DNA from: Symbiodinium sp. CCMP2592
Lineage: Eukaryota > Sar > Dinophyceae > Suessiales > Symbiodiniaceae
Length of the DNA stretch: 64,000 nucleotides
Direction: 5' to 3'
Assembly: GCA_905221615.1 (NCBI GenBank)
Contig: CAJNDT010001280.1
Location: 292,910 to 356,909, forward strand
The position numbers and the translations under genes are program-made. The stretch's first letter is position 1, and each line of letters opens with the position of its first letter. Below are positions 2,968 through 62,512 of the stretch, piece by piece. Below the pieces are notes generated by a model. The model did no database searches, was not told the origin of the DNA, and was given only the letters and a program-made list of their open reading frames with translations.

Positions 2968-3105
2968 AAAACCTAAATCCTAACCCTTACACCCTAAACC
3001 TTGAGCCCTAGACCCTAAACCTTCAACCCTAAACCCTAAACCCTGAACCCTAACCTTAAACCCTAATCCCTAAACTTAATTTCTGAACTCTAAACCCTAA
3101 ACCAG
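2968..3105 (-). repeat. Telomere-like repeat block (CCCTAAA)
   Basis: CCCTAAACC units with Ala-like substitutions (CCCTAGA, CCCTGAA), C-rich on the plus strand, opposite to the block at 2126. Confidence 0.75.
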
Positions 3106-3110
3106 CAACT

Positions 3111-3214
3111 ATGGTTGATGATATAGATCCTGCCTTACCCAAAAATAGGAATTTACCATAAATCCCATTGTTTAGGGTCCTTCAGGTAATGCAGGATTCA
3201 TATCATCAACAGTA
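3111..3214. mobile_element. MITE family 2 (GTTGATGATATAGATCCTGC arms)
   Basis: About 100 bp with arms of about 25 bp reading GGTTGATGATATAGATCCTG and its near complement. Copies at 23933 and 62069. Confidence 0.85.
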
Positions 3215-3235
3215 TGGCAACACACAATACTGAAA

Positions 3236-10285: not shown

Positions 10286-11829
10286 TCAGAGCCGCCGAAA
10301 GGAAAGATCATTATCATCATCGGAGTCGAGATCCCGATCCGCAAAACGGGGTGTCAGAGAAAGCTCCCCAGTTTCGTTGCCTTCGAAATAGTTGTTCTGA
10401 ATGCTTTGAAGAGAGGTTGGCATCAGAGGTGCATTGTTCGGGAGCATGCTGCTGCCACAATACACGCGGATGCCATACCCAGCGTTGCCGCAAATCGAGG
10501 TGTCAGCAATTTTGGGCTGCGAGTTCCTCTCAATCAGAACCCCATGGCCTCCATGATGTTCTACAGAGCTTCCCCTCATCGACGCGTGAGCGTGGTCAGT
10601 GAAGCGCATGCCATTGCCGCGTGACTTGCGAATCCGGCACTCGCTGAAGCGAGGTGCAGTACCTATACTGAACTTAGAACCCTAGCAACAATTATAGTTT
10701 TAGCTGTTTCTTAGGGATTATAATAACGAAAACATAAAAATATTTCCAAGTACCCCTGAGGAGTACGGGCACCACTGACGAAAACCCCACCATCCACATT
10801 GCAGCGCACTAGGTGTAGCTGGCCCATGACGATGTACACGCACTGACCACGCATCTGTTCATTGCGGCAGCGAAAAGTGATGTTCTCGATGCAAGCAGCC
10901 TCGCCTGAGCTGCTGAGCTCATAAGCCCCCGCAAAAAAATGCAAACCTCCAGCTCTGTAAAAGAGGAATCATATTATAACCTCAAAAAGTGTAAACCTCC
11001 AGCTCTATAAAAGAGGAATCATATTATAACCTCAAAATATAAGTACAAAGTATACTCATGTGGTGACTATAAGTCGCCGGAAGTGAAGCCTCCCCAGCCC
11101 AACATCTTCGGCATGTGGTAGCCACCAAGGCCCGCAGAGACAAGGGCGCTCTCCCAGCCGGGAGCTTCCACAATCACATCCTAGGCGTTATAGGGTTTAG
11201 GGTTTAGGAGTTTAGGGGTTTAGGGTTTAGGGGTTAGAGGTTTAGGGGTTTAGGGCGTTACGGGTTCAGGGGTTTAGGGGTTAGGGGTTGTTTAGGGGTT
11301 TAGGGTTTATAGGGGTTCAGGGGTTAGGGGTTTTTTAGGGGTTTAGGGGTTAGGGGTTTTTTAGGGGTTTAGGGGTTTAGGGTTTAGGGGTTTAGGGGTT
11401 TAGGGCAGCCCCTGAATAATGCCTGCGCGCTTTTGTGTATACGATTCGCATTGTGGTAAGGAGACTCCAAAAAATGAGAAGGTCAAAAAGACTACTTCTG
11501 GGAGACCTGGCCACATGACTTGGCCCGAAGCCCAGCACGTAGCAGTTCTGCGTCACGCGCACCGTTTCCGAGTAGAGGCCTGGACGGACCAAAACGAGGC
11601 CCTGACCTACATCGCCTTCCTTGGCAAGACGGTTCATCGCCGCATTGATGCTCTTCTCCTCATCCGGTACCACGACGACTTTCTGGAAACTCCGCTCCAG
11701 ATACCACTTTAAGGAAAACTTGCGACAGGTCGCAACCGCTCCACGAAGAAAGCTTAGAATTGGCAGCCTCTCAAAGATGCGAACGACCACTTCGCGTGGT
11801 AGATGGGGCAAGGAGATGGCGTCTTGCAT
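10286..11829 (-). CDS. F-box / parallel beta-helix protein, four exons (FBXO10/11-like)
   Basis: Exons on the minus strand: 11829-11515, 11180-11078, 10952-10767 and 10662-10286. They join without a stop into 981 nt, 326 residues. Introns are GT-AG (11181-11514), GC-AG (10953-11077) and GT-AG (10663-10766). The ATG at 11827-11829 opens the first exon. Residues about 7-45 form an F-box (LPREVVVRIFERLP, then a Cys-Arg-Lys-Phe end), the Skp1-binding module of SCF ubiquitin ligases. From about residue 58 the protein shows the PbH1/CASH pattern of FBXO11: an Ala-rich helix, LVLVRPGLYSE, VLGFG, DVIVEAPG, AACIENITFRC, HGGHGVLIERN, and an acidic tail. The known family role is substrate recognition for ubiquitination through the beta-helix. 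At 326 residues it is much shorter than animal FBXO11, so it may be a minimal version. Exon limits were chosen by frame and homology pattern, and the GC-AG junction is the least certain. Upstream about 130 bp is AT-rich with no recognisable promoter. Confidence 0.8.
10663..10766 (-). mobile_element. Introner-like element forming intron 3 of the F-box gene
   Basis: The element body is 10663-10761 (99 bp) and is flanked by the 5-bp direct repeat AGTAC at 10658-10662 and 10762-10766. On the minus strand the intron starts with GTACT, the target duplication, and ends TATAG before the second GTACT. Splicing therefore removes the element plus one duplication copy and restores the reading frame exactly. 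Related copies lie at 445-542 and 38797-38881. Ends are CTATACTGAACTT and AAGTACCCCTGAG, weakly inverted. This matches the introner mechanism known from Micromonas, Polarella and Amoebophrya, in which a duplicated target supplies a splice site. Confidence 0.8.
10941..11036. repeat. 50-bp tandem duplication at the intron 2 / exon 3 junction
   Basis: Two copies with a 50-bp period (10941-10990 and 10991-11036) each contain, on the minus strand, TTCCTCTTTTA[C/T]AG followed by AGCTGGAGGTTT. The polypyrimidine tract, 3' splice site and first exon bases are therefore duplicated. The exon-proximal copy keeps the frame into exon 3, and the distal one would be a decoy acceptor. Confidence 0.65.
11181..11514 (-). 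other. Intron 1 of the F-box gene, filled with telomere-like repeats
   Basis: On the minus strand it begins GTGGCC after the codon CAT and ends CCTAG before GATGTG. It interrupts at phase 0 between the VLGFGPSH and DVIVEAPG segments of the beta-helix. About two thirds of it (11186-11405) is degenerate TTTAGGG repeat, oriented CCCTAAA relative to the gene. Confidence 0.6.
11186..11405 (+). repeat. Telomere-like TTTAGGG array
   Basis: About 30 degenerate units (TTTAGGG, TTTAGGGG, GGGGTTAGGGG) in the G-rich orientation on the plus strand. It lies inside intron 1 of the F-box gene, so it is an internal array and not a chromosome end. Confidence 0.8.
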
Positions 11830-23709: not shown

Positions 23710-23932
23710 AGCAGTGCGCTGCTAGACGGGTTTTGCAAGCTGTAGCGGCGGGCTTCGGTTCCTGCATTTAGGGTGGTTGGGATGGCTTTTTGGGAGCTAG
23801 GTTGAGGGTTTCGGCGTTTGTGGTCAAGGTTTCAGATTTAATATGTTTCCGAGTACGGCTGTTAGTACCAGTAAGGGATCCCATAATGAAAACACAGAGC
23901 CCTAAGGAACACTATTGGTACTTGCCGTCCTT

Positions 23933-24033
23933 CGGTTAATGATACAAATCCTGCATTACCCTAAGGACCCTAAACTATGAGAATTATGGTATATTCCTTT
24001 TCATGGGTAATGCCGGATTTGTATCATCAACCG
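23933..24033. mobile_element. MITE family 2 copy
   Basis: Arms CGGTTAATGATACAAATCCTG and GGATTTGTATCATCAACCG; the centre includes GGTATATTCCTTTT. Confidence 0.85.
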
Positions 24034-24574
24034 TGCTGTGCCTTGTGACCAGAAGCCTGCCAGGAGGCGGGCTGGCATGACGAGCGAAGAGTGTCTGCCT
24101 GCACAAGGCATGGTTTAGACCCAGCCATGAAGACCCCAAAAACCTCAAACCCTGAACGCTCTATCTTAAACCCAAACCCTAATTAGCACTTAAGAAGCCT
24201 CAAATTCGAAACAACCTAGGTTAAACACCAAACCTTAACCATAAAGCACTCAAAAACAAAAGACAAGTGTGCGCGGGACTCTGGATGCTGACAAAGTGCC
24301 CCAAGCGCTTGAGTCTTTCATATACTCCATGATGTAGGTAGGGACAGTAACAGTTGGAAAAGGGTTTTGGGGTCTGTTGTACTGTAATGAATTTAATGAA
24401 TTATTTCAAGGAGCCCCAAGGAATAATATTGCCCCTATATTGAAGGCTTTCGCACAGCCCACGACTGACGGAATTACCTCTTCCTGCGTTCATGGGCTGA
24501 TGCTTCTGGCAGGCAGGCTTTGGCAACACTCCTGTACCGCATGGTGAACGTCTTGGAGTGTGCATCGGAAAACT

Positions 24575-24676: not shown

Positions 24677-24827
24677 ACCCTCTCAAACCGTCACACCCAA
24701 ACTCCTATCACGTGACCTTCGACCCCAAGTCTTTGCTCCTACATCCGAAACCCTAGCTGCAAACCTCTAAGCCCAGATCCTAAGCCATGAAGAGTATGGA
24801 CCCCCAACCCTACAGGCCTTCCTACGC

Positions 24828-25024
24828 CCTAAACCCTAAACCCTAAAGCCCTAAAACCCTAAGCCGCTAAGCCCTAAATCCCTAAACCCTAAAACCCTAA
24901 ACCCTAAACCCTAAGTCCCTAAACCCTAAAACCCTGTAAATCCCTAAACCCTAAACCCTAAATCCCTAAACCCTAAAACCTAAACCCTATAAATCCCCAA
25001 ACCCTAAACCCGAAACCCTAAAAA
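24828..25024 (-). repeat. Telomere-like repeat block (CCCTAAA)
   Basis: About 25 CCCTAAA-type units, many CCCTAAATCCCTAAA; one of the longest and least degenerate blocks. Confidence 0.85.
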
Positions 25025-38790: not shown

Positions 38791-38796
38791 ATAATT

Positions 38797-38881
38797 TACT
38801 GAACTTAGAACCCTAGCAAAAATTATAATTTTAGCTGCTTCTTAGGCATTAGAATAAATCATTTCTAAGTACCCCTAGGAG
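38797..38881 (-). mobile_element. Introner-like element, dispersed copy 3
   Basis: A shortened copy (85 bp) of the element at 10663-10761, with the same TACTGAACTTAGAACCC end and AAGTACCCCT end. It is flanked by AATT at 38793-38796 and 38882-38885. It sits 6 bp after another palindromic element (38682-38790), in a cluster of three mobile elements. Confidence 0.65.
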
Positions 38882-39077
38882 AATTGAACCCTGAACCCTA
38901 TTAACTCACGTGGCCTTCCCGTCCTCGGGGCGAGGGTGCGTCCTTGTCCCCGGCCTCGCGACCTCCGCCCACAGTCGGGGCGTGGGGTTTAGGGTTTAGG
39001 AGGGGCAGGGGACTTAGTAAGGGCTCCTTTAAGGGATCTATGGGGTTCCTTAAAGGGATCTATGGAGTTTAGGGTTT

Positions 39078-42167: not shown

Positions 42168-42271
42168 AGTTTAGGGTTTAGGGTTTTGGGGTTTTGGGTT
42201 TAGGGTTTTGGGGTTTAGGGTTTTGGGGTTTAGGGTTTAGGGTTTTGGGGTTTAGGGTTTAGGGTTTAGGA
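42168..42271 (+). repeat. Telomere-like block (TTTAGGG/TTTTGGGG)
   Basis: Alternating GTTTAGGG and GTTTTGGG units. This is the last block before the retrotransposon; none follows until after 61.6 kb. Confidence 0.85.
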
Positions 42272-43050: not shown

Positions 43051-43760
43051 TCATCGGCACAGCTGCTGCAGAATGGCCCTCGCAAGTTCTGGAGTGTACA
43101 CTTGAGCTTGCTCTGTAACGAAACGCTTGCCTATTATTCCACTGAGCTGGATGTGCGGCCTTCTCGTTCGTGAACAGCATCTTGCTCCTGAACAGCGCAG
43201 CATACAGAACGAGGGACACAGCCACACTAGCAATCGAGTGGGCTTTTTCCATGGGGTTCCATACTGACATTGGTCCAGCGATACCAATTGCACCCTACCG
43301 TCACGTAGCAGACGCTTCATGCCTTTGGTACGCCAGACTCTGGAGCTGAGGGGATTCTCAAGATACCCTGGGATCTGAAGGCGTAAGCATCTGCGAATGA
43401 CCTTGAGAGCTCCAAAGAGCATGCTGTTTGCATCCGCAACCTTCTTTTGATCATGAACAGACAAATCCGGCAACCCCATGATCGAGTCACCGTTGTTGCC
43501 CCGAAGGGCACTGGGCATCTTGGATGACCTCGCTGCTCTTCTAGCCCTGCTCCATGTATTGCATGGCAAATCTATCCCAACAGCATGGAAATTATGCAAC
43601 TGAGAGAGGATAATATTCCAACGGCTTGGCTTTGCGAGATCATTTTGAGGAGAATGAGCGAGGTCAACAACAGCAGCCTGTCCGCCACTCTCAGCTACCC
43701 ATCGAGCACCTGCCGCCTGGCCACCGAACAGACTTAGGAAGGCCTTGTTTCGAAGAGGCT
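43051..43760 (-). CDS. Methyltransferase-like domain, -1 frame after the recombinase
   Basis: About 235 codons, read in the frame one base upstream of the recombinase frame. It starts around FLSLFGGQAAGARWVAESGG, a class I SAM-binding motif I, followed by VVDL, then GIDLPCNTWSRARRA (a PC-containing catalytic-type loop), GYLENPLSSRVWR, and SLDQCQYGTPWKKPTRLLVW. DIRS and PAT elements carry a methyltransferase-like domain after RNase H. Here it follows the recombinase, so the order differs. No own ATG lies at a sensible place, and -1 frameshifting from the recombinase ORF is the simplest expression model. The same frame stays open across the whole recombinase gene (to 44895), but that part reads as a shadow. 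Confidence 0.65.
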
Positions 43761-44882
43761 GGCCATCTGCTTCTTCACTTCTCGAGGAAGTTGGCACGTG
43801 CCACTCTGGTAGTAGCGGAGAAAGTTCCGGCGTACATCTTCGCCAAACTTTCGGAGGCGATCCCCATGCTTGTTGATGCTCTGCTGTAGCCGTCCAGGCT
43901 TGTCGTAGATCCTTGCACTCGAGTCCGAGGCCCATCTGCCCCGACGCTGGATCGACTGAATCGACCTCAGCTTCATAAGATGATCGCGGCTGGCTCCCCC
44001 ATGACGGTTCTGATACGGGGATTTTGCGATATCCCCCACTGTCAAGGCCTCCACTGCAGACCTCCACACCTTCAGGTAGTCCGCCGCTTTGAAAGCCCAC
44101 ATGTCGGCATCCTCGCCATGAGCCCGCATGCGGTCCGAAGCATGCTGCCTGATCAACTGGTCGAGCCACGGAGCCCTCGTGTCGTCCAAGATCAAAATCT
44201 CGTCGTAGATCCCGGCCTTGGTGGACTCCCCCCTCTCTACCGGCGCCAGCACTATGACGGAGTGCCCAAAATCGGCATTCTTCTCCACGTAGTCGACGGC
44301 CTTGAGCTTCAAAAGCTCTCCTGGCCTCGCGTAAGTCGAGTAACTCAGCTCGTTGAAGAGCGCCTTGTCTCGATGCTTTGCTGCTAACAGCACCGCCGAG
44401 ATGGAGCTTTTGACAAATTCGATCATCGGCAATCTCGATTGTGTCGGGGCCAGTCGCCTCCACCCTTTCAGAGCTCTCTTGAACCTGGGAAGGTGCAACG
44501 CGGCCTCGGGCCGGTGGTGCTCCAACGCGGCCTGAAGCTTGGCCCCACTGCTGCAGTTTTCGCCACTGAGGTACAGGTCGTCGGCGTAGTCGCACAGCAC
44601 CGCGTCTAACTCGCCTAGCGTCTTTATGCTCAACTGGTAGAAAAGGACAAACTCGTAGAACTTTTCCAGCTTCTGCAAGTAGCTCTTGTGCGTCTCTTCT
44701 CGCACGCTGTGGGACTCTAGAATCGTCCTCTCCCCCAGACTGGCACGCAGACGCTGTCCGTACTTCTTTTGTCTCCTCCTGGCCCTCTCCCGCTTGAGCT
44801 TGACTGACTTGAGCAGCTTCTTCAACCCCGTCGCCCGCGGTGCTGGAGTTGCTCTCACTCCCTCCCGATCCGGCGCCTTCAA
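43734..44882 (-). CDS. Tyrosine recombinase of the retrotransposon
   Basis: 382 codons of open frame, beginning at a TTG. An in-frame TGA lies 12 nt upstream and there is no ATG before the conserved part, so the true start is probably joined by splicing or frameshift. The N-terminus is basic (residues 21-50). The DNA-binding core domain starts about residue 60 (SHSVREETHKSYLQKLEKFY). Catalytic landmarks: R186 in STYARPGELLKL, H294 and R299 in NRHGGASRDHL, W317 in RRGRWAS, and Y326 in ARIYDKPG. This is the R-H-R-W-Y set of the YR superfamily, which integrates a circular cDNA by strand exchange through a 3'-phosphotyrosine. The C-terminal end overlaps the methyltransferase-like frame by a few codons. 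Confidence 0.82.
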   Translation of the reverse strand: MKAPDREGVRATPAPRATGLKKLLKSVKLKRERARRRQKKYGQRLRASLGERTILESHSVREETHKSYLQKLEKFYEFVLFYQLSIKTLGELDAVLCDYADDLYLSGENCSSGAKLQAALEHHRPEAALHLPRFKRALKGWRRLAPTQSRLPMIEFVKSSISAVLLAAKHRDKALFNELSYSTYARPGELLKLKAVDYVEKNADFGHSVIVLAPVERGESTKAGIYDEILILDDTRAPWLDQLIRQHASDRMRAHGEDADMWAFKAADYLKVWRSAVEALTVGDIAKSPYQNRHGGASRDHLMKLRSIQSIQRRGRWASDSSARIYDKPGRLQQSINKHGDRLRKFGEDVRRNFLRYYQSGTCQLPREVKKQMASLFETRPS

Positions 44883-44926
44883 AATATGAGGTCATTAGCG
44901 TGTGCCTTCAAAATCCTGGGTCATGA
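44875..44926. repeat. Imperfect tandem repeat at the recombinase start
   Basis: GCCTTCAAAATATGAGGTCAT (44875-44895, first 20 shared in type) recurs as GCCTTCAAAATCCTGGGTCA at 44906-44925, period 31. On the minus strand both contain TTTTGAAG directly before GGC. The inner AG falls exactly at phase 0 before the recombinase codons GCG CCG GAT, so it could be a 3' splice site. Confidence 0.5.
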
Positions 44927-55773: not shown

Positions 55774-58206
55774 CTACTCAATCTGGCATTGGCTCTCGTG
55801 GCCTCCTCCTTCGTGAAAATTTCGACAACCCTCTTTACGCCGCGCCTCACATTTGCGGTACTGCTCATGTGGGGATTCCCATGTGCGGCTCGGGCCGTCA
55901 GCGATGTTCAGCTCAGAGGGCACCCATCGCACTATGAAACGGATGCCTGTGGCCAGACTGTGAGCTGCAATCCTGCGGAGGATGCGTAATAGGCCATAGT
56001 CCGCACATCTACCTTTGCTGATGGATAACACGACACCGAGGTTGTCGTTCAAAATGAGAACCCTGGTACCATGCTTCATCTGATCTCGGCTTCTGTGCTT
56101 GACTGCTCCCAACACTCCCCTCGCTTCCAGAACATGTATGGTGTCCTTGTAGTCGAAGGGAGCACACCACAATGTGTGCCATTTCTCGGGCGAGAGCAAC
56201 GACTTCGGAACCTCCGGAAACATTGGGTTCTCAACTAGCTGGAACGGTAGCTCACCCTCAAAATCCGGAAGGACACTGCACGGGTCATCAAAAACATCAG
56301 TGGTGTTCAAGGCCGCGGCTCTGGGATTTTCCCGATCTGGAGGCCCACGGTGATACCTCCAGCGTTCATCTTCTCTTCCAACAGCTTCAACTTCGGTGAC
56401 ATTCCATTGCCCCTCACAGACTCCATACCCCGATGTGCAAGCGTCAGTGATTAAGGGCGAAGCGTCCCATCTGGAAAAGATGTCTGCCTGTCCAAGGACC
56501 ATAAGATTGCGGAACAACTCCAGTTCGTGTATGACGCTGTCCCAAAGCCTCGTCCTTCGGTGGTAATTCGAGCGGATGAACACATAGGAGTGCCTGAGGA
56601 TGCTCATTAGCCCTCTGTGCAACAAAGCCCTGACCGTCATGTGACCCACCAGAACTTCCAGCTCGGCACCAGAAAGACACGGGGCAGCACAGCAAGCCAG
56701 CAGCGCTCTATCCAGCCTCCAGTCCCTCTTTGGAGTAGTCTCGACCTTTCCGTTCAAGCCGTCCACTCGCACCCCCAAGCTTTCACACAGACTGCAACCA
56801 TGCACAATATCATGAGTGGCCAGACCATGCCTGTGAAGTTCTTCCATGACACGCTCTTGATCCCGATCTACCTGGCCCAGGTCAACGCCGAGATGGTTGT
56901 TATTGTCAGCATATATGAGCATAGCTGTTTGGCACTCCCCATCGGCACGTCCCATGCGCACTGCTGGCCTCCGGTCCTTGACCAGCAGGCTGTCCGGCAA
57001 TACGCGACGCGCCACCTCCATGTGCGCCTGATGTGCGAGATGGAAGGCCCAACTGAATCCCATCGGCAACACTGTCAGGAACGGGTAGTAGGGCCCTTCG
57101 TGCCTGTCGGCGAGTGCTTGGAGCTCCTCCGGCATGTATCCAAGGCACTCCTGCAGCAAGAGGGGATCGACCATCGGGAGCGCAAAATACTCCCCCAGCT
57201 TCTGATCTATACGAAGTCTGTAGAAGAAATCCTTTACGTCCTCCTGCGCCATGAAAAGTGTCTCCCCTTGACTGCACTCCAACCTCGCCCAACTCTCTAT
57301 GGATCCCAGGTTTGTGCTAGGCGGAGTCCTAAAAAGCCTATTTGTGCGGCGAGCATCCACGATCAGCCGCTGGCGATCACCCTTCTTCGTGACCACGAAT
57401 GCTCCCACCTGCACCCTTGGCGTCACCGTGAACCCCACAAGCTTGCAATCGTACAGGTCCGCAACAAATTCATGATACCGTCGTGGATTATGTGCCAAAA
57501 CCGGATCTATGTGCCGTAGACCATCTAACCCCCTTTCCAGCACCCCAGCAATCTCCTCATCGCCCAACATCATCTCATCGGCAAAGTTCTCGAGCTGGTG
57601 CCTTTCACGCGGGGGGAGGATATCAGTGAGCCGAACTGGTTCACCCTGTCCCCGTGGTAGGGATAGCCGCTCTCGCGCATAGGAGGCAAGTTGCCCCGGC
57701 TGGTCAGATGAGTATGTCCCAGCCTTCTTACGCAGCAGCTGCCGAAGCGCTGCCTGCGGAGATTCTTGCACCGCGGGGGGGGCTCTATCCTTGTGTGCCC
57801 GCCTGATCCGCGAATTGATGTGCCGCTGCGCCGCATTCAAATGCGACAACGGCCATGTGCTTGCATCTGAAAAACCTGCCAAATTGTTAAGGGCCCAAAC
57901 CGTGCCCCGCTCACGATCCATCAAAGTCCTCCTTCGATGCACCCTCTGTCTTGAGCGACGCGAAGCCAGACCACTTTCACACCCGGCAAAACCATCGTCA
58001 ACAGGTAAGGGTAAGGGGAAAACATCGCCAAACCTGCTCAACGGCTCTTTGGAAAATTCACTGGTGCTAAAACCATTGCGGACAGAAGCAGCGGCACCCT
58101 CGCCACCTCCGCCCTCCGCCTCCTCAGGGGGCGGCTCCACCTTGACCACCCTTGCCTTCGCCTTTTCCCTTCTTGTCCGGCTTGTTCGGAGGATTTGGTG
58201 GACCAT
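55774..58206 (-). CDS. Reverse transcriptase-RNase H (DIRS-order retrotransposon)
   Basis: 810 residues from the ATG at 58204-58206. RT core: RLIVDARRTNRLFR (280-293), motif A QEDVKDFFYRL (D323), motif B LPMGFSWAFHLAHQ (380-393), and motif C IYADNNNHLG (431-440). The second catalytic Asp of the usual YxDD is therefore Asn435. RNase H: ITDACTSGYGV (D588), IHVLEARGV (E694), LILNDNLGV (D721), NIADGPSR (D770), a complete D-E-D-D set. An N-terminal extension of about 230 residues is basic and Pro-rich. The frame is free of stops, but in the usual arrangement the recombinase would follow closely, and here it lies 10.9 kb away. After the TAG the same frame stays open for some 55 codons, so the end may have been created by a mutation. 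Substrate: the element RNA, with cDNA made for recombinase-mediated integration. Confidence 0.85.
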   Translation of the reverse strand: MVHQILRTSRTRREKAKARVVKVEPPPEEAEGGGGEGAAASVRNGFSTSEFSKEPLSRFGDVFPLPLPVDDGFAGCESGLASRRSRQRVHRRRTLMDRERGTVWALNNLAGFSDASTWPLSHLNAAQRHINSRIRRAHKDRAPPAVQESPQAALRQLLRKKAGTYSSDQPGQLASYARERLSLPRGQGEPVRLTDILPPRERHQLENFADEMMLGDEEIAGVLERGLDGLRHIDPVLAHNPRRYHEFVADLYDCKLVGFTVTPRVQVGAFVVTKKGDRQRLIVDARRTNRLFRTPPSTNLGSIESWARLECSQGETLFMAQEDVKDFFYRLRIDQKLGEYFALPMVDPLLLQECLGYMPEELQALADRHEGPYYPFLTVLPMGFSWAFHLAHQAHMEVARRVLPDSLLVKDRRPAVRMGRADGECQTAMLIYADNNNHLGVDLGQVDRDQERVMEELHRHGLATHDIVHGCSLCESLGVRVDGLNGKVETTPKRDWRLDRALLACCAAPCLSGAELEVLVGHMTVRALLHRGLMSILRHSYVFIRSNYHRRTRLWDSVIHELELFRNLMVLGQADIFSRWDASPLITDACTSGYGVCEGQWNVTEVEAVGREDERWRYHRGPPDRENPRAAALNTTDVFDDPCSVLPDFEGELPFQLVENPMFPEVPKSLLSPEKWHTLWCAPFDYKDTIHVLEARGVLGAVKHRSRDQMKHGTRVLILNDNLGVVLSISKGRCADYGLLRILRRIAAHSLATGIRFIVRWVPSELNIADGPSRTWESPHEQYRKCEARRKEGCRNFHEGGGHESQCQIE

Positions 58207-59386
58207 CAGGTCGCTGCCGAAGATGCTTTCGTTCCTCTGCAGCCAACCTGTTCTGCTTTAGGATCTCGGCTCGTGCTGCTTGTCGCTTTGCCGCGTGCTG
58301 CGTCAAGGCCGGGTCGATAACTGAACCGTCCGTGGCTTCACGGACACCAAGTATCTCGTCCGATCCCTCGTAGGAGGGGGCATCCGGACGACCTTGATGA
58401 GCTACCTCGATCAGTGCCCTTCTGCGGTTCAAAGCCTCGGCAGAAGCTAATGATGGTAGGTTCAGCTGGTCGTACGATGCCATGAAGTTCAATGCTCTGC
58501 AAATGGACGAATGCTCATGCACACTGCGATCCGTACCACGAACTCCTGATTTTCGGACCCAGCTTTCGTGGTGTTGCACAAAGTCAAAACCCAGCCTCCT
58601 GAGCTGTCTGATGTCCCTGTAAACCGTCCGGGGTCCAGTGAGCGGGAAATCGTCATACTCAATTTCCTCGTACTCAGGGAACGCCTCCGTCAAAGTACGC
58701 CATCTCTCATCAGATGCGTCAAACATGACAGGAAGTACCCTCACATCCCTTTCAGCTGCCTGGACATCTCCAGCCCTTGGCCTGAGAGCGCTGCTGACCT
58801 CTGGAGCAACTTCAGCGGCCACCTTCCGCGCTAGCAGGGTGCGGCCTCCTGATACAAAAAGCTTGTAATCAAGACCACCCACTTGTAGCAAAGGCGAGGA
58901 GGCCGGACAAGTCACCTGATCACCGACATTCTCCCCATCAGAGCTGTACACCACGATCCACACGAAGTCCGAGACCTCTCTCTCATGGACCGCCGCCTCC
59001 ATTCCAGTAGCCCTGACCGGATGCCTTTGACCATCCGAGTCCAGCTTGCCAGTAATGCGATGACGGGGCCGACGTGTGTCATCTGCCTCTGCCTTCTTTA
59101 TCAGCTCCAGCAACTCTTGCCTAGTAAAGGCACCTTGATCCGAATGCTTGGCCATGTAGGTCTCATTCTCGTCAACACCCTGGGGCAGCCGACCATTATG
59201 AACACGCCTTATGTCTTGATACACCTGACCTACCTCCAGGATCGTGTCCTGAATCTCCCGGTCAGGGGTGGCTACTTTCACATGATTGCCCTCAGAGCAA
59301 TGCAGAACTATTCTCTGATGATACAGGGCTGGGTCTTCCTCGAAGACCACGAGCACGGAGTCTAGCGGCAGCCAGTTCCTTGCCAT
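58124..59386 (-). CDS. Retrotransposon ORF2: gag-like protein
   Basis: The first ATG of this open frame is at 59384-59386 (MARNWLPLDSVLVVFEEDPA). The frame itself opens at a GTG at 59413. About 420 residues: a mixed N-terminal domain, a central part with SDFVWIVVYSSDG and RTLLARKVAAEVAPEV, then GFDFVQHHESWVRKSGVRG, and a C-terminal Pro/Gly/Lys-rich tail (PNKPDKKGKGEGKGGQGG) likely to bind nucleic acid. No zinc knuckle is visible. Its place before RT and the basic tail fit a gag or gag-pre-RT protein of dinoflagellate elements. It overlaps RT by 83 nt in a +1 frame and is intact. Confidence 0.6.
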   Translation of the reverse strand: MARNWLPLDSVLVVFEEDPALYHQRIVLHCSEGNHVKVATPDREIQDTILEVGQVYQDIRRVHNGRLPQGVDENETYMAKHSDQGAFTRQELLELIKKAEADDTRRPRHRITGKLDSDGQRHPVRATGMEAAVHEREVSDFVWIVVYSSDGENVGDQVTCPASSPLLQVGGLDYKLFVSGGRTLLARKVAAEVAPEVSSALRPRAGDVQAAERDVRVLPVMFDASDERWRTLTEAFPEYEEIEYDDFPLTGPRTVYRDIRQLRRLGFDFVQHHESWVRKSGVRGTDRSVHEHSSICRALNFMASYDQLNLPSLASAEALNRRRALIEVAHQGRPDAPSYEGSDEILGVREATDGSVIDPALTQHAAKRQAARAEILKQNRLAAEERKHLRQRPDGPPNPPNKPDKKGKGEGKGGQGGAAP

Positions 59387-59804
59387 CCTTTGGCACAGAA
59401 GCCAAGGTCTCACTCTCGGCGACCCACTGCGGTGCCTCCAATGCCAGTCCTTGACCCGAGTGCCCGGGTGTCACACCGCGGTGCCACGAAGAAATTGTAG
59501 CGGAAAGAAAACCGCCCAGCAGGAAACTCAGCAGAATGCTCAGGAACCAAAGCACAAGTTCAATCCAGAATCGCTGCCTTCGATAAGCCTCTAATTCCAG
59601 AATGGAAAGCTCTGCCTCAGCAAGCCTGTCTCGACACTTCCTAGCCTGAGCCTCCCAGTAGTCCCTCTGATCAGAACAGATCCAGGTGGCCTCTTGACCG
59701 TTCTCTTTGCAGCTGACAGGATGCTTCGACTCGCCCCAAGCAGCAACCACAAAACGCAAGGCCTCCACTAGAACTCCCTTGCAAAGCTCGCGCCAGGCGA
59801 CCAT
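59292..59804 (-). CDS. Retrotransposon ORF1: coiled-coil and transmembrane protein
   Basis: 170 residues from the ATG at 59802-59804, 13 bp inside the A1 repeat. Residues about 50-75 are a charged helix (KCRDRLAEAELSILELEAYR), probably a short coiled coil. Residues about 79-103 (WIELVLWFLSILLSFLLGGF) form a clear transmembrane segment. It takes the position of gag, yet a membrane anchor is not typical of gag in YR retrotransposons. It overlaps the next ORF by about 95 nt from that ORF's ATG, in a frame shifted by +1. It could be a fused host exon, or the N-terminal part of a frameshifted polyprotein. No known family is recognised. Confidence 0.6.
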   Translation of the reverse strand: MVAWRELCKGVLVEALRFVVAAWGESKHPVSCKENGQEATWICSDQRDYWEAQARKCRDRLAEAELSILELEAYRRQRFWIELVLWFLSILLSFLLGGFLSATISSWHRGVTPGHSGQGLALEAPQWVAESETLASVPKDGKELAAARLRARGLRGRPSPVSSENSSALL

Positions 59805-59816
59805 GTCCTACTCCTT

Positions 59817-61877: not shown

Positions 61878-62068
61878 AAGCAATGGCGCAAACTCCAGTG
61901 CTAGTAATGATCTGACTGCCCTACACCGTCAGAGAAAGAGCCAACGTGCAAAAAGCCCAAGGCTGTCGACCGACTAAACCCTAAACCCGGAACGAAAGCT
62001 TAACCGCCAGCCATGTGCCTGGCTCGCCAAACGCTCTGCCCGGACTTGTGCCTGACACACAGGAAATG

Positions 62069-62170
62069 CGGTTGATGATATACATCCTGCATGACCCATA
62101 ATAAGGAATATACCATAATTCACATAGCTTAGTGCCCTGAAGGTAATGCAGGATCTATATCATCAACCGT
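62069..62170. mobile_element. MITE family 2 copy
   Basis: Arms CGGTTGATGATATACATCCTG and CAGGATCTATATCATCAACCG. The inner segment is inverted relative to the 23933 copy, so the two lie in opposite orientation. Confidence 0.85.
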
Positions 62171-62512
62171 ATCACACTACATCGAAGTCGGGCATATAAA
62201 AGTGCGTTGAGCATGTGCAGACATACCCACATGCGCTGCAGCAGGGTCACTGTGCTTTCGCAAGCTCTACTGTGCTATGAACTGTTGTATTCACCAGACA
62301 TGAACCCAATAAGCCGACAAAGGGCGAGGATATAGTCAACAGTTGTCAGGCTCCATGCCGCGTGTGTCCAGTAACAGCATATCTCCAGTCTATCCGCAGG
62401 AACCCCCAACACGAAGCCGTTAGCAACATCTTGCAGGGTTACGTGAGGACATCATCACGGTGGATAAGCTTGGATCCACGACTTACAACATACCGCTGAA
62501 CCCCAGGGCCAT

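Follow-up and report, generated by a model that had tools for sequence, protein, structure and literature searches.

A 104-nt segment on the minus strand of a gene in Symbiodinium sp. CCMP2592 is very probably an introner, i.e., a MITE-like, non-autonomous transposon turned spliceosomal intron in a coding exon. We infer the splicing of the RNA as drawn below, and the reading stands on homology and on the anatomy of the insertion. An earlier note on this DNA had proposed a mobile element caught as a spliceosomal intron, and this is borne out by a large genomic family, by exact duplications and by protein domains that are restored by one and the same excision rule. The element would be a clear example of transposon-driven intron birth in one exon, with its family at hand for comparison.

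The interrupted gene and its element copy

The window (the whole stretch of DNA that was analyzed, 64,000 nucleotides) is part of contig C1280, and the genome searched comprises 1.098 Gb in 5,383 contigs. The gene runs on the minus strand from an ATG at 11829 to a stop codon at 10288-10286. Its first exon (11515-11829, with 11515 as one of several possible 3' ends) contains the F-box-like region, the exon upstream of the element (10767-10954, with a provisional 5' boundary) encodes the first part of a putative beta-helix, and the last exon (10286-10662), which runs to the stop codon, encodes the second part. The description of the gene as an F-box gene with a beta-helix held for the latter domain (Beta_helix PF13229, E = 2.7e-9 for the open frame 10286-10681) and fell short for the former, as the F-box-like match (PF12937) in the first exon scores 21.1 bits, under the Pfam cut-off of 24.3.

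Two AGTAC repeats at 10658-10662 and 10762-10766 bracket the element at 10663-10761 (98-99 bp), whose intron sense is the minus strand, like that of the gene, and which carries a candidate 3' splice site ...TTCAGTATAG. On the minus strand the repeats read GTACT; the first copy of this target-site duplication (10762-10766) would be the source of the GT of the 5' splice site, and the second copy (10658-10662), contained in the last exon, would remain exonic after the join. GTACT and the element ending in TATAG together form a 104-nt GT...AG segment from 10766 to 10663, precisely the boundaries that the earlier note had obtained by removing the element and one repeat. In the window copy the match is 5 bp long and one extra C precedes the family terminus, so that a duplication of 4 bp with minor alterations at the junctions would explain it just as well as one of 5 bp.

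Because the segment is 104 nt long (104 mod 3 = 2), its retention would shift the frame, and the upstream frame without excision hits a stop 16 codons further on. When the putative intron (10663-10766) is excised, the Beta_helix match extends over residues 33-138 of the 188-aa joined piece and crosses the junction, and its score rises from 37.3 bits with only the frame of the last exon to 40.5 bits with the join. Reading the upstream exon through into the element yielded no Beta_helix match in Pfam. Taken alone, the junction-crossing match is modest evidence for an intron. The join across 10662/10767 is predicted to read ...GCCC up to the junction and GTACTGCACC... after it.

Within the gene model, homology supports the join of the last two exons only. 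For the two other introns there are 3,692 stop-free donor/acceptor combinations, so that the 326-residue total of the previously proposed reading frame proves nothing, even if its join of the last two exons stands; we abandoned the choice of one model for introns 1 and 2, given so many open splice-site combinations. A 50-bp tandem duplication (start-to-start distance of 50 bases) at about 10938-11048, at the end of the second intron, copies both the acceptor end and the exon start, and the true acceptor of that intron is therefore ambiguous. Degenerate TTTAGGG-like arrays occur within the contig, for example at 11190-11410, 24820-25020, and 42170-42270, and one such array sits in the first intron of the F-box-like gene. 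A genome search with the gene returned its own two exons as the sole matches, with no paralogue to serve as an empty site, and the beta-helix piece obtained by the join had no PDB match at 0.1.

The two additional copies that had been described in the window, each with a 4-bp duplication, were recovered by self-BLAST (E = 4.7e-35 and 2.1e-20). One, at 445-542, is flanked by TTGT at 441-444 and 543-546; the other, at 38797-38881, is internally deleted with worn ends and is flanked by AATT at 38793-38796 and 38882-38885. All three copies and the F-box-like gene share the minus strand. The window also contains other element families, whose members are about 100 bp long and have inverted ends (3105-3222, 23923-24040, 62062-62180, and other sets), and long minus-strand open reading frames at 55777-59807 and 43054-44907 that by eye appear retroelement-like, with polymerase-like and recombinase-like stretches. 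No Pfam family matched at 0.01 in these two regions or in the set of eight long minus-strand open reading frames scanned in the window, and an Rfam scan of the window at gathering thresholds matched nothing.

The family and its excision rule in the genome

The genome-wide search that the earlier note had called for uncovered a large family. A BLAST search with the region produced 1,690 first-look candidates and scored 40 of them, which are 88-95% identical, the region itself excepted. The family 19-mer CTTAGGGGTACTTAGAAAT, taken from the 5' end in intron sense, occurs exactly 2,255 times in the genome (1,100 and 1,155 times on the two strands), and CTAAGTTCAGTATAGGT occurs exactly 385 times; the reversed-pattern controls for both had 0 genome hits. 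The consensus derived from 68 copies is 99 bp long, with a median copy identity of 93% and 92% for the window copy, and the family ends read CTTAGGGG...CAGTATAG. The putative terminal inverted repeats are poor, with agreement at 9 of 15 terminal positions.

We read 72 copies, including the window copy, in a sample taken mostly for GT ahead of the element. A 4-bp duplication is exact in 42 of these 72, 38 of them with GT, and the duplicated sequence varies by copy (GTTT, AAAC, GTTC, GAGA, GTGA, GTAT, GTTG, and others). One locus (L004) has a duplication of 5 bp. A fixed-length, 4-bp target duplication of the kind made by MITEs and cut-and-paste DNA transposons is therefore the family norm; the 99-bp element initially recognized in the beta-helix region stands, and the 5-bp duplication assigned to it does not represent the family.

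The same excision rule was applied at other loci. In L030, the joined frame matches FAD_binding_7 over residues 94-280, across the junction at 157 (E = 1.4e-37; CRY-DASH/photolyase), and aligns without gaps through the junction to the cryptochrome DASH structure 2j4d. In the ankyrin protein of L028, Ank_4 covers residues 38-84 across the junction at 49, with a repeat that is split by the element and restored on excision. In the RCC1-like protein of L067, WD40_RLD spans residues 47-105 across the junction at 73 with 21.4 bits against a cut-off of 150, and RCC1_2 reaches 21.8 against a cut-off of 22 on one side of the junction only. Two more loci have long joined frames: L048, for which a Pfam scan gave no match, and L026, with downstream sequence judged by eye to be ankyrin-like. 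Retention of the element introduces in-frame stops in L030, L028, L048, L067, and L026. Beyond the window gene, these comparisons back the excision rule strongly in two genes and weakly in one, so that domain support for an intron exists at four of the 72 copies read, the window copy counted and one of the four being weak. When open frames on both sides of the element were counted over the 72 copies, sense exceeded antisense with 24 vs. 20 at a minimum of at least 30 aa, 16 vs. 7 at 40 aa, 4 vs. 2 at 60 aa, and 3 vs. 0 at 80 aa, which is only suggestive of introns.

Taken together, the family consists of many similar sequences, several of which lie as putative introns in different genes, and the limits of these introns are set by the element and its duplication, as expected if the insertion itself creates the intron. 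We envisage that a transposase from another element would cut with a 4-bp stagger and mobilize the element, and that integration into a coding exon would leave a short target duplication. If the target started with GT, the first copy of the duplication could serve as the 5' splice site, while the element would contribute TATAG as the 3' splice site and the second duplication copy would complete the exon; removal of duplication and element by the spliceosome would then give the coding sequence back. The origin of the 5' splice site from the target duplication, as claimed before, is the best supported reading, given the anatomy of the duplications and the restored domains. In Symbiodinium, GC and GA donors are common, as is AG followed by G (PMC4083563), so that a duplication that opens with another G dinucleotide might function as a 5' splice site too.

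Across the whole family, there is no clear mark of selection for splicing. Among the 2,255 19-mers, 241 have GTNN before them, which is above 1/16. However, a transposon that is blind to the strand of its target must show duplications ending in AC equally often, and the mirror control NNAC amounts to 217; the excess of GT is therefore attributable to target preference, and we rejected it as a sign of selection. G is the first base of the duplication in 535 of 2,255, about the level of the base composition.

The near equality of GT and its mirror control also suits the view that the transposon simply broke the gene and that the GT-AG fit arose by chance, without splicing. The same view gains from the lack of a second gene copy in the search above and from the many possible models for the gene's other two introns. 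It is nevertheless improbable, as it leaves unexplained the Beta_helix match across the junction once the segment is removed, and the recovery of a photolyase and an ankyrin repeat by the same rule at other loci.

Orientation of the copies relative to genes

The listed copies of the introner family follow the direction of the genes around them. Pattern searches gave complete totals, and the places used here are the first 100 in contig order among the matches listed; the orientation set consists of 100 + 100 + 100 listed places and 39 of the 40 BLAST places, the window copy excluded. A merged set combined six listings into 418 places on 226 contigs, with same-strand places within 250 bases counted as one, and with those rows of the NNAC control and of the first-base-G search that repeat earlier places only partly entered. 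Genes were located through markers, i.e., short coding patterns for ankyrin, RCC1-like, and kinase sequences that were placed independently of the element. RCC1-like repeats are abundant in Symbiodiniaceae, and their large number here (2,451 pattern hits) suits a dinoflagellate host. The ankyrin pattern provided 100 listed of 432 hits, condensed by hand to 46 clusters, and the RCC1-like pattern 100 listed of 2,451 hits, condensed by hand to 39 clusters; reversed-pattern controls gave 2 (ankyrin), 4 (RCC1-like), and 0 (kinase) hits.

Long blocks of genes on one strand are known from trypanosomes. They are also described for dinoflagellates in two reports (PMC8110479, PMC4083563), and the host genome has this dinoflagellate trait: neighboring marker clusters 4-150 kb apart lie on the same strand in 38 of 38 cases with a smaller marker set (13 of 29 kinase hits, as also used with the merged pairs), and marker neighbors more than 5 kb apart, at any distance, do so in 25 of 29 cases with fewer markers (20 of 29 kinase hits).

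In the unselected listing (first 100 places), neighboring element copies are alike in orientation in 56 of 58 pairs. Over the merged listed places the figure is 174 of 192, with 101 of 104 for pairs less than 100 kb apart and 16 of 26 for pairs more than 500 kb apart. With all 29 of 29 kinase hits used, each of the 39 listed copies that has a marker gene within 200 kb is in sense to the nearest one, on 17 contigs. Within 500 kb of a marker, 60 of 68 listed copies are sense (this supersedes 61 of 68 from a smaller data set, which drew on parts of the merged and control lists and lacked one of the ankyrin clusters as well as 16 kinase hits), and the eight opposite cases all lie more than 245 kb away, where gene blocks may have switched strand in between. 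On contig C169, genes and element copies both change strand. A rare exception to the orientation rule is found at G000:C1302:836278 and 836310, where two element ends are opposed, 32 bases apart; perhaps one copy was inserted into another.

The orientation holds equally for copies without a preceding GT, defined by the absence of GT four bases before the 19-mer and of a listed CTAAGTTCAGTATAGGT nearby. Among the matches listed, 47 of 48 neighboring pairs of such copies are alike, and all 24 with a marker within 200 kb are sense, on 10 contigs, in a class into which a copy with a 5-bp duplication could have been misplaced. As copies within a contig are not independent, contigs are the fairer count, at 17 of 17 overall and 10 of 10 where GT is lacking.

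As a control, we used a single second MITE family of the window, whose pattern AGGAATATACCATAATTC has 5,422 exact genome hits. Among the matches listed, 43 of 70 neighboring pairs of this family are alike (Fisher p = 1e-6 vs. the element), and 31 of 59 copies are alike with the nearest element copy (100 listed rows). When all 100 listed rows were compared with 30 marker clusters, 7 of 29 were alike with the nearest marker gene within 200 kb, or 5 of 16 without contig C23, the orientation label of this family being arbitrary. The orientation of the control is not perfectly random, as neighbors less than 100 kb apart lean slightly one way (32 of 49, p = 0.044) and the marker counts just given also show a lean, against the genes.

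Two explanations of the sense orientation deserve weight. In the first, orientation is random at insertion and antisense copies in transcribed blocks are purged, for example because they give rise to cryptic exons; we place this at close to an even chance. By eye, the antisense strand of the consensus has pyrimidine-rich stretches ending in AG then G, together with possible donors, and AG then G is common at Symbiodinium acceptors (PMC4083563), so that cryptic exons in antisense copies are a possible cause of the purging. However, the 24 of 24 listed copies without GT would demand near-complete removal at sites for which the splicing of the element does not matter, and the one control MITE family has no such lock. 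With copies without GT locked and the control family unlocked, purging over the element's own splicing is insufficient as an explanation. The second explanation, which we offer tentatively, is that the direction of transcription (or that of a replication fork running with it) dictates the orientation already at insertion, whether or not the product can be spliced. The lock even in copies without a GT duplication hints at a step that precedes splicing, and if insertion were direction-locked, each insertion would be a candidate intron, explaining the ready turn of this family into introns. The genome lends itself to a direct test of whether selection keeps rare harmless copies or insertion is biased in orientation. 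Spread through RNA, by reverse splicing of the excised intron, would likewise account for the sense orientation of the 39 copies near markers, but it is very improbable and we discarded it as a route, since reverse splicing would bring the 5' splice site along and leave no site-specific 4-bp duplications, whereas the duplications differ between sites and 2,014 of the 2,255 19-mers have no preceding GTNN.

Listings of the introner literature on antisense copies, orientation, and strand bias name no report of such a sense-lock, with PMC9860276 as the one paper examined for orientation, and we make no claim of novelty.

Comparison with known introner systems

Returning to the reading of the segment as an introner, the element is a new family member of an already described class. 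The introners of Micromonas and Aureococcus studied by Huff and colleagues in 2016 are reportedly MITE-like elements whose insertion gives rise to introns, with one splice site recruited from the duplication. They resemble the window family by description and belong to other organisms.

Several other systems are comparable. In Amoebophrya, Farhat et al. (2021, PMC7789003) describe introner elements with direct repeats of 3-5 nt at exon-intron borders and inverted repeats; these form a subset of non-canonical introns with many sequences, whereas the window family is one sequence family with GT-AG boundaries. According to a review (PMC11453091), introners were recently active in four of five dinoflagellates (Roy et al., 2023), and 12,253 introns of Polarella glacialis stem from recent insertion (Roy et al.). 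In the Symbiodiniaceae groups compared in PMC11114475, 3-5% of genes carry introner elements; this census counts introner elements as a class, in contrast to the one sequence family considered here.

The closest counterpart is introner family 1 of Symbiodinium microadriaticum, which Gozashti et al. (2022, PMC9860276) describe with a 4-bp duplication, a 3' splice site borne by the element and a 5' splice site derived from the duplication. As the same splice-site recruitment was thus already in print for a dinoflagellate and introners are an established class, the novelty implied by the earlier note was set too high. In that paper, the terminal inverted repeats are reported to be clear, whereas the ends of the window family match at 9 of 15 positions only. 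The printed S. microadriaticum example, at positions 86725-86839 (PMC9860276), is close in length to the window intron, and the two elements, likened by description rather than by sequence, have the same architecture.
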